IMG/VR virus record: IMGVR_UViG_3300033431_000002
Coordinates: 1-23,422 of that record
From: a virus
Strand: one strand, 5' to 3'
Length of the DNA: 23,422 nt
Positions 6,305-21,142 of this stretch are shown one piece after another. Both the position numbers and the translations under genes were made by a program. The first letter of the stretch is position 1. Every line of letters starts with the position of its first letter. Below the pieces are notes generated by a model. It saw nothing but the letters and a program-made list of their open reading frames with translations, was not told where the DNA came from and did not search any database.

Positions 6305-7452
6305 GCTTGAAAAGTTCTTATCCTGCAAGCTTGGTTTGTGTATAAAGATACTACAAACTCCTCACCACGCAAAGCAAGCCTGTAATTTGTTCGTGTTGCT
6401 CTAACTGTGTAGTTAAAGAAGTTCTGAAAATCAAGAAACCTGCTAAGCACCGCCATGTGTCCTATATCGTATTCTGTTGTTTCAAGCACTTCTATGCTTA
6501 TACCGTTCAACCAGTTTTTCTTAAACTTTACTGTGAATTCTTTCTGAAGTGGAATATGTGGTTTGTCTGGGTCTATTATATCTTGCAACGTGTAAAGGTT
6601 TCTGTCATACACTACATAATGCTGAGATAAATACAAATAGTTTGTTGAAAAGTAAATCCGCCTGTTGCCTTTGCTAATCCACACTAAACTGTTAAACAAG
6701 GAGTTTTTGAATAGGTAGAAATTCTGCGTTTCTCTTACAAACTCAATACCTTGTTCCTCAAATTCTGGAAACGGACAAATTCTTTGCAAAGAGGTTTCTT
6801 CAGTTCGCAAGTAAATCAGGTCTGAAATTTGGAGGCTAAGCAGAACTGTAGCATCATCTCCAATGAGGTAAAGCAAATCATCTCTTTTCACAAGTTGTGG
6901 GTTAATCTTAGGATTAGCAAACACTCCATACGAATATGCTGGAAGAGTTATCGTGCTTCCATCAGTTGCGGTTGCAATTCTTCCAGCATCATCCATGCTG
7001 TAAATATACACAGTAGTCGGTGGAGTTGTGATAACTGCAAAGAGGTAGGCTGATAATTGATAGACATAAACAATGTTTGACGGTTCTGAAATCGCTATAG
7101 TCTTAACTTCATCTGTTGCGGTGTTTATAACCAAGCATTTGTTGTTATCAACAAAACAAAAGATTACATCACCAAACACCACCACACCAGCAAATTTGTA
7201 GTATGTTCTAATTGTGTTTTCGTAAAAAACATCGTATAAGGTGTTTCTACTCAAAACCAAAAACACTTTACCGTTCAAAACAAAACCTTCTACAAAGTTG
7301 TTCGGTAAAGTGTTTATTTCCAAATACCTTTGACGCACTACCTGAGGAAAAACAATAAAACCTTCTTCAGACAAATAAACCGCATCGCCTTTCATATTTA
7401 CAATCGGTAGTTTAGTTAGGTCAAGGGCATCCACGTGTCGCATGAACTCCAT
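6298..7452 (-). CDS. Propeller-like virion protein, possible tail nozzle or stabilisation protein
   Basis: About 384 residues from the ATG at 7450-7452, which lies just after GGAGGTGT. An in-frame ATG nine bases later (7443) is nearly as good. The upstream fibre gene ends at 7416, so the genes overlap by about 36 bases. Nearly the whole protein consists of short hydrophobic strands separated by turns, with recurring blocks such as 'VFLVLSRNTLYDVFY', 'VVVFGDVIFCFVDNNKCLVI' and 'YLFAVIT...TVYIYSMDDAG', the texture of a beta-propeller. P22 gp10, the packaged-DNA stabilisation (tail nozzle) protein, is a propeller of similar size. That comparison is structural inference, not sequence recognition. 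Another adhesion or hub protein is possible. Confidence 0.65.
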   Translation of the reverse strand: MEFMRHVDALDLTKLPIVNMKGDAVYLSEEGFIVFPQVVRQRYLEINTLPNNFVEGFVLNGKVFLVLSRNTLYDVFYENTIRTYYKFAGVVVFGDVIFCFVDNNKCLVINTATDEVKTIAISEPSNIVYVYQLSAYLFAVITTPPTTVYIYSMDDAGRIATATDGSTITLPAYSYGVFANPKINPQLVKRDDLLYLIGDDATVLLSLQISDLIYLRTEETSLQRICPFPEFEEQGIEFVRETQNFYLFKNSLFNSLVWISKGNRRIYFSTNYLYLSQHYVVYDRNLYTLQDIIDPDKPHIPLQKEFTVKFKKNWLNGISIEVLETTEYDIGHMAVLSRFLDFQNFFNYTVRATRTNYRLALRGEEFVVSLYTNQACRIRTFQAW

Positions 7453-12442: not shown

Positions 12443-13033
12443 TTACCAAAACTTCAGTTTATCTTCTCCCGTGCGGTAGTATTGTCCGTTTTGATAAACT
12501 TTCTTGGAATAGCTGTAGTTTATATCGCAAGCGTTTCTGTATTGCCTACACGTCAAACCGTCAAACCACACGCATACGTTTTTTCGTCTGCACTGTGCTT
12601 TACAATCTTCCCACCGCATACTATTAGCTCTACTACACTCACGCAAAACCAAATCACCGCCATTGTATCTTTGATACATTATCCAAAGCGGTTCTTTGTA
12701 AAGACTGCGTAGGTAATACGCAAAGGCATAAAAGTGGTCTAAATGGTTCTCGGTGTATTTCGGAAAATAAGGTCTAAGCATCGGGTCTAAAAATTTGGGT
12801 GTAAGCTGGAAGTAGCCTACAGAACCGTGTCCGTCTTTGCTTATAACAAATCTGCATTTTGTCTCTGTATGTGCCAAGCCTACGTTATACCAATATGGAA
12901 AATCCGAACCAAAGAACCGTGCGGTAGCCAGTTTAGTCTTATCTGCTATTCTTATACAAGCTTCAAGAGGCTGTGCATTAGCCGAAAATGAAAGCAAGAG
13001 CAACAATAAGCTGAAGAACAATCGCATAAACAT
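12443..13033 (-). CDS. Secreted lysozyme/transglycosylase-like endolysin
   Basis: 196 residues from the ATG at 13031-13033 (AAGGAG nine bases upstream); in-frame codons further upstream are less likely. A classical signal peptide is present: MRLFFSLLLLLLSFSANA, with probable cleavage after residue 20. The mature part carries lytic-transglycosylase landmarks: catalytic Glu 57 (HTETKC), GYFQLTP at 73-79 (the G-L/F-x-Q motif) and YNGG at 123-126. It therefore cleaves the glycan strands of peptidoglycan from the periplasm. Eight cysteines in the mature protein (26, 60, 133, 144, 148, 154, 162, 169) could form disulfides after export, stabilising it. It overlaps the holin gene by 56 bases, as in a lysis cassette. 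Export by Sec would let the holin act only as a trigger. Confidence 0.85.
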   Translation of the reverse strand: MFMRLFFSLLLLLLSFSANAQPLEACIRIADKTKLATARFFGSDFPYWYNVGLAHTETKCRFVISKDGHGSVGYFQLTPKFLDPMLRPYFPKYTENHLDHFYAFAYYLRSLYKEPLWIMYQRYNGGDLVLRECSRANSMRWEDCKAQCRRKNVCVWFDGLTCRQYRNACDINYSYSKKVYQNGQYYRTGEDKLKFW

Positions 13034-13247
13034 ACTGCCACACTCCTTGCCAGTCAATTTTACCTATTATCAACCGCCTTGCAAGATAACCAAACCCAAG
13101 ACTTGCCAAAGCGATAGATAACTTGCGAAATACAAGGTCTGGTATTAGCTGTGGGTCAAAAGCATTTGCATAGTAAAGATACAAAGCAAGTGGTAAAAAT
13201 AAAACCACGAACCAGTAGTAAGTTAAAAAGTCCTTAATCGCCTTCAT
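12978..13247 (-). CDS. Putative holin (small membrane protein)
   Basis: 89 residues, with GAGGAGG before the ATG. Hydrophobic segments at about residues 10-29 and 67-88, plus a weaker amphipathic one at 40-60 (KLSIALASLGFGYLARRLIIG), are separated by short charged loops. Small size, two to three membrane passes and overlap with the endolysin gene downstream and with an unknown gene upstream are the usual marks of a holin, which forms lesions in the inner membrane at a set time. The internal 'RKLSIALASLGFGYLARR' pattern resembles phage membrane proteins often labelled holin. Function rests on topology and position, not a verified family match. Confidence 0.7.
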   Translation of the reverse strand: MKAIKDFLTYYWFVVLFLPLALYLYYANAFDPQLIPDLVFRKLSIALASLGFGYLARRLIIGKIDWQGVWQYVYAIVLQLIVALAFIFG

Positions 13248-13572
13248 ATATGTCCTCCTCTGGATAAGCTATGCTTACAATAAGGTTTCTGGATTTTACA
13301 TCAAGCATGTCAATATTCATAGACAAAAACACCACATCTTTTGCACTATGGGTTCCCAGTTCATAAACAAGTCTATTGTCTTGCGTTGGATAGATGTGTT
13401 CCATTACTACAATATCACTGTTGTCTTCTGCAAGTTCATGTACCTTGATAACGTCGGTTATAAGGTCTGGGTCGCTCTTCAGTATGTTTTCAATTCTGTT
13501 CAAATCTTCTTCAAAAATCACAACACCATCATCTAACAAAGTTTCAATTACGCCAAGTCTTTTTCTGCTCAT
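13234..13572 (-). CDS. Unknown acidic protein inside the lysis cassette
   Basis: 112 residues with AAGGAGGTAAG before the ATG. It is acidic and soluble, with alternating strands and helices; residues 11-45 are Asp/Glu-rich (LLDDGVVIFEEDLNRIENIL) and the end is YPEEDIYEGD. No signal peptide or membrane segment is visible. It overlaps the holin start by 14 bases and follows the o-spanin gene by 40 bases. A cytoplasmic regulator of holin timing is conceivable because of position, but nothing in the sequence shows it. No family recognised. Confidence 0.65.
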   Translation of the reverse strand: MSRKRLGVIETLLDDGVVIFEEDLNRIENILKSDPDLITDVIKVHELAEDNSDIVVMEHIYPTQDNRLVYELGTHSAKDVVFLSMNIDMLDVKSRNLIVSIAYPEEDIYEGD

Positions 13573-13612
13573 GACTTACCTCCTTTTTAAACAATTTTAG
13601 AGACTTTTCCCT

Positions 13613-13852
13613 TTACTTGCAAGTATCTAAAACGCTTCTCAACAGCTCGTTTTCTCTTTCAAGCTTGAACATGTAGTCTAACAAGGTCTTGAGTTTTTCT
13701 GGATAAGTTGCATCTTTTTTGATTACTGGTCTTTCTGTTTTTGGAATATCAGGCACTGGACACCGCACAAATACTTCCTTTTCCACTATCTGAGGTTTCG
13801 TTGCACAAGCAAAAACTGTAAAACTACTCACTAAAATAAGAAGACGCCTCAT
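13613..13852 (-). CDS. Outer-membrane spanin lipoprotein (Rz1-like)
   Basis: 79 residues with AAAGGAG before the ATG. The N-terminus is a lipoprotein signal: basic start (MRRLL), hydrophobic core, then VFAC with Cys 16 as the likely lipidated residue. The short mature part has a proline-containing region (CPVPDIPKTERP, about 31-42) and a helical end. It overlaps the upstream i-spanin gene by 29 bases in a different frame. Two-component spanins link inner and outer membranes and fuse them in the last step of lysis of Gram-negative hosts. Size, lipobox, proline content and overlap with a membrane-anchored coiled-coil gene support the call. Confidence 0.8.
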   Translation of the reverse strand: MRRLLILVSSFTVFACATKPQIVEKEVFVRCPVPDIPKTERPVIKKDATYPEKLKTLLDYMFKLERENELLRSVLDTCK

Positions 13853-14162
13853 CTATCATCTCCTTTAAAGCTTGACATTCATCCTCAGTCTTTGGTATCG
13901 TAATTTGAGGTATTGGTTCCAGTGATTTTTTCAAGAGTGCGGAGTATCTGCGTTCAATTTGTTTTTTATCCAGTTCGCACTTATTCCGCAAATCTGTATA
14001 TAGTTGTGTGTATTTGAGTAAGTTTTCTTGCGTAGCTTGAAGTTCTGCTTGGCATGTTGCAAGTTTGCTCATTGTTCTGAGATGAGTTCTACGTTCATGG
14101 AGTAATACTACAACATGTAAAAAATACACAAGTCCAAAAGCAATAAGCAAAGCTTTAACCAT
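13824..14162 (-). CDS. Inner-membrane spanin (Rz-like)
   Basis: 112 residues with GGAGG upstream of the ATG. One N-terminal membrane segment (about residues 3-21, KALLIAFGLVYFLHVVVLL) is followed by a periplasmic helical domain with coiled-coil character (about 25-90) and two cysteines at 37 and 62 that could form an intermolecular disulfide as in lambda Rz. The gene partly overlaps the o-spanin gene, which is the common arrangement. Together with that lipoprotein it would span the periplasm and disrupt the outer membrane. The gene also overlaps the tail-fibre assembly gene by eight bases. Topology and arrangement are the evidence; sequence is not conserved in this class. Confidence 0.8.
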   Translation of the reverse strand: MVKALLIAFGLVYFLHVVVLLHERRTHLRTMSKLATCQAELQATQENLLKYTQLYTDLRNKCELDKKQIERRYSALLKKSLEPIPQITIPKTEDECQALKEMIDEASSYFSE

Positions 14163-17546: not shown

Positions 17547-18091
17547 CACAACACCTCCTTCAGGCTTTTTAATTTTTCCTTCCAAGAAGGGTGGATGTAA
17601 AACATTTGTTTAAGTTGTTCAAAACTTTTTTGTAAGACATCTAAAAACTCCTCTTCCGTTAGAAATTCAACAGTGAAATTACCTTCGTTATCAGAGAAAA
17701 CATTTTCATCCTCAAAAACCTTTGGATTTTCATCAACACGAATAACAAAAACTTTATCGCAATCTTCATGAGAAAAGTAAATAAAAGTTTCTCCTATATT
17801 TTGCTCTGCGTTTCTCTCTACTATTTTTACATAAAAAACCTCTCCACAAAAGTCAAGCTTATATACCAATAGTAGATTATTATTTCTCTCAAACTTCATT
17901 ATTAACTCTGCTTCCTTCGCTTCTGAAAATTTCCGAGGGGGAGGATTTAATTTTCTCATAATGTAATCTAACATATATGAAGGCAAAACTTCCACACGAA
18001 TATTACGCTCTTTTCTGCTATCAAAAACACGCAAATGAAATTCTTTATAACTAATATACACAGTTTGTGAGAGAACTTGATGTGCTCTCAT
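17546..18091 (-). CDS. Unknown protein following the AcrIII-1 gene
   Basis: 181 residues from ATG at 18089-18091 (GGAGG seven bases upstream), overlapping the stop of the AcrIII-1 gene as TGATG. Charged alpha/beta protein; a Pro-rich turn (KLNPPPRKF, about 47-55), a strand-rich middle part (FYVKIVERN, FVIRVDENPK) and an acidic region (VFEDENVFSDNEGNFTVEF) precede a helical C-terminus (LQKSFEQLKQMF). It lies directly after AcrIII-1, so it is a candidate anti-defence or early host-takeover gene by association only. No family recognised. Confidence 0.7.
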   Translation of the reverse strand: MRAHQVLSQTVYISYKEFHLRVFDSRKERNIRVEVLPSYMLDYIMRKLNPPPRKFSEAKEAELIMKFERNNNLLLVYKLDFCGEVFYVKIVERNAEQNIGETFIYFSHEDCDKVFVIRVDENPKVFEDENVFSDNEGNFTVEFLTEEEFLDVLQKSFEQLKQMFYIHPSWKEKLKSLKEVL

Positions 18092-18450
18092 CACACTACC
18101 TCCACCATCACAAAGCTTGCTTGTCCTTTGTTATACAGGTCAAGCACTTCTTCTTTGCTTAGCACTTGTCCTTCTTGAAGTCTTACGCCTAACTGAAAGA
18201 CAATCAAAATGTCTCCTGACTGAAGCTTGATTGCGGTTCTGTTAGTTGGAACTTCAATGCCAAGTAAAGCTGAAAGAATTTCTGCAGTACTTTGGTGTCC
18301 GACTGCACTTTCAAAACCGAGTTCAAGCAAGGACTTAACCCGCTGAAGGTCAATCGGTCTGACGAACAGTCTGACTGGTACTGGAACTTCAGGGTTAAGG
18401 TTAAGCATGTTGAGGCTGAATGCATTGGATAAGTAGATTTTGTGTTGCAT
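18091..18450 (-). CDS. acrIII-1: AcrIII-1 family anti-CRISPR ring nuclease (DUF1874)
   Basis: 119 residues, the normal size. The family signature is clear: N-terminal 'YLSNAFSLNML' (6-16), 'SAVGHQSTAEILSALLGIEV' (48-67), 'GDILIVFQLGVRLQEGQVLS' (79-98). The key catalytic His of the family (H47 in SIRV1 gp29) corresponds to His 52 in GHQSTAE; Arg 90 and Glu 93 keep the R-x-x-E spacing of the active site. Characterised members cleave cyclic tetra-adenylate (cA4), the second messenger of type III CRISPR, and so switch off the Csm6/Csx1 defence. Located first in the operon behind a near-perfect promoter and an AAGGAGGTGTAGCC leader, it is placed for immediate expression. It also resembles STIV B116 of archaeal viruses. 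Enzyme activity here is inferred from conserved residues. Confidence 0.93.
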   Translation of the reverse strand: MQHKIYLSNAFSLNMLNLNPEVPVPVRLFVRPIDLQRVKSLLELGFESAVGHQSTAEILSALLGIEVPTNRTAIKLQSGDILIVFQLGVRLQEGQVLSKEEVLDLYNKGQASFVMVEVV

Positions 18451-19158: not shown

Positions 19159-19416
19159 TTATAGGATTTCTTCATTTTCTATATGCTCTATATCCTGTAA
19201 AATATCCCTAACTTCATCAGTTAAATATTCCGTAATATCATCCAAATCATACTCACCTAAATAAATCACCTTGCCATTGTCTAAACCTATTTCATTAATC
19301 CCTTCTTTTATAGCCAGCTTCAACACATCACTTAAATCACCTTCTAAATCTTCAAAGCTAAAGCACCAAGTATAATATGCAAACTCTATAAGATCTCTTA
19401 ACCTTACGTATGTCAT
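19159..19416 (-). CDS. Small, very acidic early protein
   Basis: 85 residues, ATG preceded by AAGGGGGTGTTGCC. It contains 23 Asp/Glu against six Lys/Arg, a net charge near -17, mostly in helix-forming stretches (FEDLEGDLSDVLKLAIKEG; ITEYLTDEVRDILQDIEHI). Such acidity is typical of DNA-mimic anti-restriction or other inhibitor proteins, but no specific family is recognised and many small phage proteins are acidic. Its mRNA leader of about 115 bases contains a predicted pseudoknot, so expression may be regulated after transcription. It is the first gene of a two-gene operon. Confidence 0.7.
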   Translation of the reverse strand: MTYVRLRDLIEFAYYTWCFSFEDLEGDLSDVLKLAIKEGINEIGLDNGKVIYLGEYDLDDITEYLTDEVRDILQDIEHIENEEIL

Positions 19417-19442
19417 GGCAACACCCCCTTAAAGTAGTTTTT

Positions 19443-19486
19443 GGGCGTAATATTATTTTTACATGCCCTTACGCCCTTGGGCATGT
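19443..19486 (-). promoter_or_regulatory. Predicted H-type RNA pseudoknot in the early-operon leader
   Basis: Read on the minus strand: ACATGCCC, AA, GGGCGTAA, GGGCATGT, AAAAATAATA, TTACGCCC. The first block pairs with the third (8 bp) and the second with the fourth (8 bp), giving crossing stems, loop 1 of two bases and an A-rich loop 3 of ten bases. It lies between the promoter (19539-19567) and the ribosome site, ending 26 bases before the ATG. A cis-regulatory element, such as a protein-binding site or riboswitch-like fold, is inferred. Confidence 0.6.
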
Positions 19487-19538
19487 GATTACCTAGCTTC
19501 TACCTGGCCTATCCCTTATGTATCTCATGGTAAGGTTC

Positions 19539-19567
19539 AATATAGCACAAGTTTTTTAGCTTGTCAA
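19539..19567 (-). promoter_or_regulatory. Promoter of the two-gene minus-strand early operon
   Basis: Minus strand: TTGACA (19567-19562), 17-bp spacer, TATATT (19544-19539). The predicted start is near 19532, giving a leader of about 115 bases before the ATG at 19416. Confidence 0.8.
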
Positions 19568-19570
19568 GTG

Positions 19571-19647
19571 GTTAAATTTAACATCACATTATGCAAGTCT
19601 TTGTCTTTCAATACTTTGCAAATACTCCGTAATGTTAAATTTAACAT
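19571..19647. repeat. Two copies of palindrome GTTAAATTTAACAT
   Basis: GTTAAATTTAACAT occurs at 19571-19584 and 19634-19647; its core GTTAAATTTAAC is a perfect palindrome. The first copy abuts the -35 box of the promoter at 19562-19567, a position typical of an operator or activator site. The DNA between the copies has no gene. Confidence 0.7.
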
Positions 19648-19726
19648 GCAAGGTTATTATCTCTTTGCATAAACAAACCTGTTCTTGTTAAAATTGTGTT
19701 AAAATTAACATAAAATTAACACAAAA

Positions 19727-19844
19727 TTAACATGTTAAAATTCACGTTAAATTCACGTTAAAATTAACATGTTAAAATTCACGTTAAATTCACGTTAAAA
19801 TTAACATGTTAAAATTCACGTTAAATTCACGTTAAAATTAACAT
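19727..19844. repeat. 37-bp AT-rich tandem repeat, three copies plus a partial
   Basis: The unit begins TTAACATGTTAAAATTCACG and repeats exactly with 37-bp period at 19727, 19764 and 19801, then TTAACAT at 19838. TTAACATGTTAA within each unit is palindromic. Upstream (about 19687-19726) imperfect TTAAAATTAACA words extend the AT-rich block. Candidate DNA-unwinding element or repressor array. Confidence 0.85.
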
Positions 19845-19846
19845 AA

Positions 19847-19894
19847 GAATATTCGCATATTCGCATATCAGAATATTAGCATATTAGAATATTC
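19847..19894. repeat. GAATATTC / GCATAT short repeats
   Basis: GAATATTC occurs at 19847-19854 and 19887-19894, joined by variants (CGCATATTCGCATAT, GAATATTAGCATATTA). All are AT-rich and partly palindromic. Their place between the 37-bp and 24-bp repeats suggests that they are part of the same control or origin region. Confidence 0.55.
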
Positions 19895-19922
19895 ACAAGA
19901 GCGGGTTTTAGTGTTTTATAAC

Positions 19923-20018
19923 ACTGCTGTTAAAACTTTTGATAAGACTGCTGTTAAGACTTTTGATAAGACTACTGCTAAGACTTTTGATAACACTACT
20001 GTCAATACTTTTGATAAT
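19923..20018. repeat. Four 24-bp repeats with a DnaA-box-like word
   Basis: Units at 19923, 19947, 19971 and 19995, consensus ending ACTTTTGATAA. On the minus strand each carries TTATCAAAA, matching the DnaA box TTATCCACA at seven of nine positions, spaced exactly 24 bp. Read in one plus frame the units encode an octapeptide (TAVKTFDK-like), but that frame has no ribosome site and runs into G-rich DNA. Confidence 0.75.
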
Positions 20019-20037
20019 TCTTTTGTCAAATCAGCAA

Positions 20038-20060
20038 GGTGGGGCGGGGTGGGGTGGCGG
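20038..20060 (+). other. G-rich tract with G-quadruplex potential
   Basis: GG, GGGG, GGGG, GGGG, GGCGG separated by single bases on the plus strand. It could form a G-quadruplex. It lies just before the first block of ACCGAAAA boxes. Confidence 0.55.
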
Positions 20061-20095
20061 TTGGTTATGGTGCGTGTTTTTGAGTTTGTCAAGAA

Positions 20096-20391
20096 ACCGA
20101 AAAGCTACTGAAAAGCTACCGAAAAGGATACCGAAAAACTTTCAAACGCTACTCTCTCAATGTTTTTCTTTGTTTCTTGTTTTTTGTTTTTCGGTTTTTC
20201 GGTAGTAGAGAGATGTATAGAAATGTCGCGGGTCTTGCCTGCAAAAATCGCGCCAGGGGTGGGGGTGGGTCGGGTAGGCGGGTTTGGGTAGCAAAACCGA
20301 AAAACCGAAAAGAATTTCACGAAATGCTTGATTTTCAACGGTTTGACGCTTTTCGGTACCCTTTTCGGTGGCTTTTCGGTGGCTTTTCGGT
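20096..20391. repeat. Mirror-symmetric array of twelve ACCGAAAA boxes
   Basis: Forward boxes at 20096, 20107 (ACTGAAAA), 20118 and 20130 are spaced 11, 11, 12 bp. Reverse boxes (TTTTCGGT) at 20350, 20362, 20373 and 20384 are spaced 12, 11, 11, so the outer arms (42 bp each) are inverted copies with four mismatches. Inside, TTTTCGGTTTTTCGGT (20188-20203) and its perfect inverse ACCGAAAAACCGAAAA (20296-20311) give four more boxes. The 11-12 bp spacing puts boxes on one face of the helix. Candidate initiator or regulator binding array. Confidence 0.85.
20256..20288 (+). other. Strong G-quadruplex motif in the array centre
   Basis: GGGG-T-GGGGG-T-GGG-TC-GGG (20256-20274), then GGCGGG and GGG. 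Four G runs with one- or two-base loops fit a stable quadruplex. It sits in the spacer between the two inner ACCGAAAA pairs. Confidence 0.65.
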
Positions 20392-20453
20392 GCTGAGAAA
20401 ATCTTTGATTTTCAACGCTTTGCTAATATCACGCAAGTGCTTGATTTTCAACG
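20328..20453 (+). repeat. Three copies of TTGATTTTCAACG
   Basis: Exact 13-mers at 20328-20340, 20405-20417 and 20441-20453, each followed by a (G/C)TTT. They interleave with the right arm of the ACCGAAAA array. Each includes TTGATTTTCAA, a 4-bp inverted repeat, suitable for a dimeric binding protein. Confidence 0.7.
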
Positions 20454-20508
20454 GTTTTAAGCATCTTTGCAGTGCTGGGCGGGTTGGTCTGATTGCATAA
20501 AAAAGGAC

Positions 20509-20537
20509 TTGACAAACGCTAAAAAGTGTGCTATAAT
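20509..20537 (+). promoter_or_regulatory. Promoter of the first plus-strand gene
   Basis: TTGACA (20509-20514), 17-bp spacer, TATAAT (20532-20537): a full consensus. The AAAGGAGGTGAAGGC ribosome site and ATG follow 32 bases later. Confidence 0.9.
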
Positions 20538-20569
20538 ATACTATAGAAAACTTGAAAGGAGGTGAAGGC

Positions 20570-20758
20570 ATGAGGAGCAAAATTGAAAGACTAAAAAGAG
20601 ATTTTAGTTCCTTGAAAAGAAAGATTGAAAGAAACACAAAAAACATGAAGCTAAGTTTAGAAAACGAGTTAGAAATTTTCTGCAGTCTTGACAAAATAGA
20701 AAAGCTTTTAGAAAAACTTGACAAGTATGAAAAAATGTGTTATAATATACCTATATGA
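20570..20758 (+). CDS. Small charged coiled-coil protein
   Basis: 62 residues from the ATG at 20570 (AAAGGAGGTGAAGGC upstream). It is almost one continuous Lys/Glu/Arg/Leu helix: MRSKIERLKRDFSSLKRKIE at the start, LEKLDKYEKM near the end, with leucines at heptad-like spacing, suggesting a dimeric coiled coil. No family recognised. The final residues (LDKYEKMCYNI) are encoded by the -35, spacer and -10 of the next gene's promoter (20718-20746), so the C-terminal sequence is constrained by promoter function. Possibly a DNA- or RNA-polymerase-binding small regulator; that is speculation. Confidence 0.7.
   Translation: MRSKIERLKRDFSSLKRKIERNTKNMKLSLENELEIFCSLDKIEKLLEKLDKYEKMCYNIPI
20718..20746 (+). 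promoter_or_regulatory. Promoter inside the end of the coiled-coil gene
   Basis: TTGACA (20718-20723), 17-bp spacer, TATAAT (20741-20746), lying within the last codons of the upstream gene. It directs gene 20780-21142. Confidence 0.88.
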
Positions 20759-20779: not shown

Positions 20780-21142
20780 ATGAAGATTAAAACAAGCCGG
20801 GAAGTGCTTCAAGAAGCCTTAAATTATGTTAATGCTCTTTATGATGGGAATGTAATTATGGAAACTAAAGACAGAGGACTTTACTATCTTGTGCGGTTAA
20901 AGGTAAAAGACAGTAGGAAAAAAGGAGCAAGACGGAGCCCTAACGGGAGGAGATTAGCTAACGCATGCTGGCATGTGCATGGTTATTTTATTGATAAGAT
21001 TTTTGAACTAGATAATAAGGCAGTAGTGCGTACGAGGGGTAAAACATTCAAAAGAGACAATTGGGATTGGGAAGATTGGAATGCTGGAAGTTTATATAAT
21101 CCTGTTTTTATTTCTGAACTTTGTGATTGTGAAAGGACTTGA
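20780..21142 (+). CDS. Unknown early protein
   Basis: 120 residues, AAGGAGGTGAAGCC before ATG. It has an N-terminal helix (TSREVLQEALNYVNALYDG), a strand 'GLYYLVRLKVKDS', a very basic middle (KKGARRSPNGRR, about 47-58), a 'CWHVHGYFIDKIF' segment and a Trp-rich region (NWDWEDWNAG) before a Cys-containing end (ELCDCERT). The mix of basic loop, His and Cys could suit nucleic-acid or metal binding, but no family was recognised. Its TGA stop (21140-21142) falls inside the -35 box of the next promoter. It has its own consensus promoter. Confidence 0.75.
   Translation: MKIKTSREVLQEALNYVNALYDGNVIMETKDRGLYYLVRLKVKDSRKKGARRSPNGRRLANACWHVHGYFIDKIFELDNKAVVRTRGKTFKRDNWDWEDWNAGSLYNPVFISELCDCERT

Follow-up and report, generated by a model that had tools for sequence, protein, structure and literature searches.

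A twelve-slot box array with a sigma54-type centre as a candidate origin/control element of a Pyrovirus-type phage

The divergent intergenic region and its array

The window analysed here, the whole 23.4-kb stretch of DNA, is an IMG/VR virus record in which terminase, portal and DnaN-type clamp genes were recognised. A relative, G001 (IMGVR_UViG_3300005853_000017, 40.3 kb), encodes a portal and a clamp that are 90–95% identical to those of the window, and the structural proteins of the two are mostly 80–97% identical. Pyrovirus, a proposed genus of Aquificae phages, is defined by a PolA polyprotein with DUF927, a helicase and a PD-(D/E)XK nuclease (PMC7689252). The window fragment ends short of these genes, and the set was found in G001, which carries a 3'-5'exo/PolA polyprotein with DUF927, a SNF2-type helicase and a PD-(D/E)XK nuclease. 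Judged from its genes, the window phage appears to be of the Pyrovirus type and to belong to hot-spring Aquificaceae, whose phylum had yielded no phage isolate as of Palmer et al., 2020 (PMC7689252). Among the ORFs listed for the window and for G001, of which a part were profiled, no integrase or transposase was noticed, and the genome account of Palmer et al. likewise reports neither (PMC7689252). A portal search of 136 Aquificota genomes returned no provirus.

Two divergent gene blocks of the window are separated by an intergenic region of 1,153 bp (19417–20569), with a leftward ORF starting at 19416 and the ATG of a rightward ORF at 20570. Divergent blocks, an intergenic region of 750–1,350 bp and a GC-skew switch, as described for Pyrovirus, are thus all present. 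The cumulative G-C minimum falls at 19869 in the window and at 2658 in G001, 140–230 bp from the array described below, and the maximum in G001 coincides with the other block switch at 28355. Skew alone is weak evidence for a replication start because skew and gene orientation switch together. A tmk gene on the opposite strand (G001 6401–6991) retains the regional skew, at +0.084 overall and +0.195 at third positions (77 sites, ~1.7 sigma), which weakly favours replication over coding bias.

Within this region lie twelve boxes in 296 bp (20096–20391), and their start offsets by orientation are +0, 11, 22, 34; −92, 100; +200, 208; and −254, 266, 277, 288. The left outer arm (20096–20137, plus strand) holds four boxes at 20096, 20107, 20118 and 20130, spaced 11, 11 and 12 bp, and the right outer arm (20350–20391, minus strand) holds four at 20350, 20362, 20373 and 20384, spaced 12, 11 and 11 bp. 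Between them are a left inner pair on the minus strand (20188–20203, TTTTCGGTTTTTCGGT, boxes at 20188 and 20196) and a right inner pair on the plus strand (20296–20311, ACCGAAAAACCGAAAA, boxes at 20296 and 20304), each with a spacing of 8 bp. A sequence-only reading of this DNA had described a mirror-symmetric array of twelve boxes, and its core observations were recovered: the facing, spaced boxes are real, the 42-bp arms are inverted copies that differ at exactly 4 positions, and the inner pairs of 16 bp are perfectly complementary. Two of its terms need to be narrowed. There are twelve slots, but only eleven hold an exact ACCGAAAA, the box at 20107 being ACTGAAAA with a single mismatch. The mirror symmetry holds for the outer arms but not for the inner pairs, since outer and inner boxes are separated by 58 bp in the left half and by 46 bp in the right half, a difference of about one helical turn. 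This asymmetry is kept in all other copies of the element (58/46, 58/45 and 59/47).

All 11 exact copies of ACCGAAAA in the window are confined to these 296 bp. Under a first-order Markov null model, 300 simulated windows contained a mean of 0.8 exact copies, with a maximum of 4 in total and of 1 per 300 bp. No other 8-mer of the actual window clustered more strongly than 4 copies per 300 bp, compared with 10 for the array in one scan frame.

The centre of the array is occupied by TGGCGCGATTTTTGCA (20240–20255, minus strand), a leftward-reading sigma54-type −24/−12 motif and the sole match to that consensus in the window. It fits TGGCAC-N5-TTGCW with GG-N10-GC, the sequence form of a sigma54-dependent promoter. 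Next to it on the plus strand is a G-rich tract with a G-quadruplex motif (20256–20288). Three TTGAWWWTCAA dyads of the form TTGATTTTCAA lie to the right of the centre, at 20328–20338 (the 'D2' motif), 20405–20415 and 20441–20451, and with these the whole conserved element spans 20089–20465. Two sigma70-type promoter-like sites flank it. On the minus strand, TTGACA-N17-CATAAC (20064–20092) abuts the left arm and reads TTGACA-N17-TATAAC in G001 and in a chromosomal copy (L145); on the plus strand, TTGACA-N17-TATAAT (20509–20537) lies upstream of the rightward gene block. A hairpin of the leftward RNA was unremarkable (z = −1.43), and searches for Rfam families and tRNAs found nothing.

Outside the element, the same intergenic region contains direct repeats with a 24-bp period (TTTTGATAAGACTGCTGTTAAGAC, 19914–20033). 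Together with AT-rich repeats of the TTAACGTGAATT type they make two further families, at 19700–20033, that are poorly conserved in G001. Profile searches gave no family match for the genes neighbouring the array, including those to its right, and a structure model of one 276-aa neighbour was uninformative. Another neighbour (20780–21142, plus strand) is a 120-aa early protein with an invariant ACWHVHG(Y/D)F and a CxC, conserved at 30–42% in four unrelated viral contigs; it had no family match, and its structure model had no significant fold match.

Copies in a related phage and in host chromosomes

The sequence-only reading had proposed looking for the same 8-mer array in related genomes, and it is present in the phage relative G001 and in a chromosome. 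In G001 the array is turned the other way round, and its groups comprise five, two, two and four slots. Its contig end carries an ilvE gene, and by way of that gene we reached Thermocrinis genomes, where a copy (L145; G007:C15:111594–111977) lies on a 200-kb chromosomal contig and matches window positions 20086–20479 at 86% by blastn. One flank of this copy is an IS110-family transposase gene (Pfam PF01548/PF02371; the NCBIfam IS110 match is below the curated cut-off), and the other holds a tRNA-Leu-like and then a murJ-like gene, both named by inspection. The surrounding IS110-type element (L145 14495–17701) contains a 1.1-kb insert with the phage-like array and GC-rich short repeats. A transposase 94% identical to it occurs in G063, whose IS copy is without the 1.1-kb stretch, so the array was either inserted into or lost from such an IS element. 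Among the copies that share ACCGAAAA, the boxes are 98% identical (94/96 and 86/88), compared with 80–82% at other sites outside the core and dyads. Gains and losses of boxes comprise whole 11-bp units, and degenerate boxes stay in their slots. The offsets of G001 and L145 are nearly the same as those of the window.

The first 2,600 bp of G001 (L003, 1–2600) join a Thermocrinis ilvE/peptidase segment, which has ~96% DNA identity to MAGs and ends at 1759, to the array and the phage genome, with a stretch resembling an IS110-element end at 1755–1827 between the ilvE segment and the array. This junction may be an assembly chimera or a recombinant of chromosomal and phage array copies; informative sites along the G001 array are mixed with respect to these two options.

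A 53-bp match (87%, E 5.5e-11) in conserved sequence other than the boxes led to a further copy, which stands alone in an intergenic stretch of a second Aquificaceae chromosome (L183; G049:C1:1348.7–1349.15 kb). Its boxes are TTGCACAAT, and they lie at offsets 0, 11, (22, degenerate), 34 | 93, 102 | 209, 218 | 265, 277, 288. The four copies align collinearly over the full length of the element. When the window is compared with G049, the core and the dyad region each retain 75% identity, and the boxes and the spacers 41% each. Scored for the 12-slot layout, the four copies reach 95, 90, 87 and 84, and the best other tested locus 59. In a box-agnostic scan of 1.83 Mb, which rewards any 9-mer in the eight outer slots, only these elements scored at least 55 (62 for G049), and simulated DNA (0.58 Mb) reached a maximum of 49.

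The sequence-only reading had likened the facing, helically phased arrays to the loading sites of a protein multimer, and this likeness is strengthened at the sequence level, for the layout survives even a complete change of box sequence. Conservation of the layout independently of the box letters points to a protein assembly of fixed geometry and not to intrinsic curvature; the G049 boxes are without A-tracts. Although the second box type is represented by one instance, that of G049, the comparison suggests that spacing matters more than box letters.

What the centre retains is also informative. The sigma54-type motif TGGCRCGAWWWTTGCA is central in all four copies, with the core reading TGGCGCGATTTTTGCA in the window, TGGCACGATTTTTGCA in G001 and L145, and TGGCACGAAAATTGCA in G049, and the TTGAWWWTCAA dyads likewise occur in every copy. 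The G-quadruplex motif to which the sequence-only reading had drawn attention is present in the three ACCGAAAA copies but absent from G049, and so falls outside the conserved design. By this alignment, the conserved central feature is the sigma54-type promoter motif and not the G-quadruplex.

In 64 Aquificaceae genomes TGGCRCGAWWWTTGCA occurs 10 times, and its reversed control does not occur. Outside the two arrays, at least four of these copies lie 15–49 bp upstream of an ORF in the correct orientation, and one lies ahead of a gene that by sequence is glutamine-synthetase-like. A sigma54 DNA-binding domain (Sigma54_DBD) was found in three of the four Aquificaceae genomes tested (G039, G049 and G063) but not in the fourth, the 1.3-Mb MAG G007. 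The element itself is present in 2 of the 64 Aquificaceae genomes and in both phage contigs that cover the origin region, and collections of phages and plasmids contained no DNA match to it. Two unrelated viral contigs (L008 and L009) were considered as relatives and set aside: in them the same 8-mer forms short three-box runs, and inverted arms are absent.

A candidate origin/control element and its alternatives

On the basis of the GC-skew switch and repetitive sequence, Palmer et al. proposed that replication proceeds in both directions from the region between the divergent blocks, so both the origin proposal and the repetitive elements were already known for this phage group (PMC7689252). 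The published putative origin resembles the present locus in phage group, in its divergent intergenic region of 750–1,350 bp, in its skew switch and in a repetitive sequence capable of stem-loops; compared by description, the origin text differs in giving no box sequence, 12-slot layout, sigma54 core or chromosomal copies (PMC7689252). What is new here is the 12-slot layout kept in G001 and in an IS110-type element of a Thermocrinis chromosome, the unrelated box in the same slots of another Aquificaceae chromosome, and the sigma54-type −24/−12 centre in all four copies.

We propose that the array is the core of an origin/control element of ~380 bp with built-in sigma54-type control in a Pyrovirus-type phage, a reading to which we give an even chance on the sequence comparisons above. 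A sequence-specific protein, probably phage-specific, would bind all twelve 8-bp boxes on the same face of the DNA, at one box per helical turn; the bound boxes would form two inner pairs and two outer arms of four that face each other, with the sigma54-type promoter reading leftward between the inner pairs. The resulting multimer could loop or strain the ~200 bp between the arms, where bidirectional replication would start, and sigma54-dependent transcription through the element, controlled by the host, might activate the process or set its timing. The geometry would follow from the shape of the multimer, and the box sequence would change with the specificity of its protein.

In its multiple repeated and phased putative binding sites the element is like the iteron origins, such as lambda ori with O and the V. 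cholerae PLE ori with RepA, where repeated sites serve a cooperative initiator. It differs from them in its twelve short boxes in four oriented groups with fixed helical spacing and in the sigma54-type promoter inside. In plasmid R1 parC, a promoter sits between two sets of 11-bp iterons. The present locus shares with it two arrays of ~11-bp repeats around a promoter, but its arrays are inverted, inner pairs are present, and the genes on its right side gave no hits to parM/parR-like families. Box replacement has a precedent in the PLE types, where the origin varies in step with the DNA-binding domain of RepA (PMC8263062). Against an origin, the element has no clear AT-rich unwinding region (its AT content of 0.35–0.68 per 40 bp is not above the genome background), and the two chromosomal copies have no phage genes nearby.

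The sequence-only reading had offered an origin or a bidirectional switch between divergent early genes. The location between divergent blocks, with two sigma70-type promoters and at the skew switch, fits this reading, an origin agrees with the proposal of Palmer et al. (PMC7689252), and the two options are not mutually exclusive. A purely transcriptional switch, in which the boxes are enhancer or operator sites for the sigma54 and flanking sigma70-type promoters of leftward late genes and no replication starts, is in our view unlikely, though it deserves serious weight. Its case rests on the exact −24/−12 motif at the centre of every copy, on the dyads upstream on the same side, on the TTGACA-type promoters on both flanks, and on distance: the right outer arm lies 121–162 bp upstream of the start inferred from the core, in or near the usual sigma54 activator zone of ~100–150 bp (PMC7057263). 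The GG-N10-GC core and arrays at about the enhancer distance are indeed what sigma54 promoters with upstream activating sequences would share with this locus. Yet the boxes are mirror-arranged and occupy the downstream side of the start as much as the upstream side, dyads and not 11-bp direct repeats are the usual form of sigma54 activator sites, and other host sigma54 promoters were found without such boxes or dyads. Moreover, the two chromosomal copies have no correctly oriented downstream gene, and a leftward transcript in the window would run for ~0.8 kb before reaching its first ORF.

The chromosomal copies without surrounding phage genes, one of them in an IS110-type element, were not foreseen by the sequence-only reading, whose picture is to that extent incomplete. 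They raise the alternative that the array belongs first and foremost to host chromosomes or to mobile elements in them, for instance as a stand-alone unit that IS110-type elements carry, and that the phage acquired it and has only a secondary use for it. The 86% copy inside the Thermocrinis element, whose closest IS relative is without the insert, the stand-alone G049 copy with other boxes, and the G001 contig, in which an IS-end-like stretch connects Thermocrinis ilvE with the array, all fit such an acquisition. We nevertheless regard it as distinctly improbable: the element was found in only two of the Aquificaceae genomes but in both phage contigs, its boxes are strongly conserved in phages, and the phage copy sits exactly at the block and skew switch. 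An element acting through DNA structure, with phased A-tracts (curvature) and the G-quadruplex but no specific box-binding protein, could draw on the GAAAAG tracts at an 11-bp pitch and on the G4 motif of three copies. It is hardly credible given that G049 keeps the slots without box A-tracts or a G4 motif; both curvature and the G-quadruplex were rejected as the conserved feature.

If the array is an origin/control element, a vaguely defined 'repetitive intergenic origin' of uncultivated hyperthermophile phages becomes a concrete element with defined slots, and an example of complete binding-site replacement with conserved spacing, in which the architecture stays constant as the specificity changes. 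The presence of a sigma54 core points to a coupling of replication or late transcription to a regulatory sigma factor of the host, and the chromosomal copies prompt the question whether decoys, satellites or sensors are involved. Stand-alone copies in Aquificaceae chromosomes, with boxes matching particular phage types (ACCGAAAA and TTGCACAAT), could act in trans on infection, which we put forward as a speculation with little probability behind it. Such copies would titrate the phage box-binding protein, be replicated by the phage, or fire a sigma54 transcript as an infection sensor, and an arms race would explain why all boxes change jointly with constant geometry. Plasmid-borne lambda oop-ori fragments inhibit replication (PMC3349717), and by analogy this inhibition and the co-variation in PLE (PMC8263062) make a decoy or satellite reading of the chromosomal copies conceivable.

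Related boxes and dyads elsewhere in Aquificaceae

Boxes of another kind were encountered at the ends of a Mu-like transposable prophage in G039 (C1, ~818.5–849.5 kb; L184, L185 and L182), which encodes a DDE transposase and a TniB/AAA protein and has lysis genes resembling window positions 12443–14162. Both of its ends carry TGGGACA boxes and TTGAWWWTCAA dyads, and its left end also holds a resolvase and TnpB/Cas12f-like gene pair (IS607-type). Mu-type transposase ends were rejected as an explanation of the array, since the TGGGACA boxes of this prophage are without the 12-slot layout.

A longer form of the dyad, RTGCTTGATTTTCAA, occurs 11 times in the 64 genomes, and its control does not occur. 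These loci include arrays with other boxes beside a comM-like gene, CRISPR leaders and one CRISPR spacer. The comM-side arrays consist of GTGAAATT/TGTGGAATT boxes with the same dyad (L179 4690–5390, L180 4880–5443 and L181 8640–9400); those of G049, G057 and G059 with GTGAAATT were rejected as the same element, having the dyad in common but a different layout.

At three loci of one genome (L168, L177 and L178) the dyad, as ATGCTTGATTTTCAA, adjoins CRISPR repeats, probably in the leader. One CRISPR spacer of an Aquificaceae genome (L171, around 1501) starts with TTGAAAATCAAGCA, the dyad motif of the element, which points to the dyad being present in invaders of these hosts. In the window itself, ~1.6 kb from the array, positions 18091–18450 (minus strand) encode an STIV B116-like protein (PF08960; Csx16 by PADLOC), a candidate anti-CRISPR of the AcrIII-1/ring-nuclease type.
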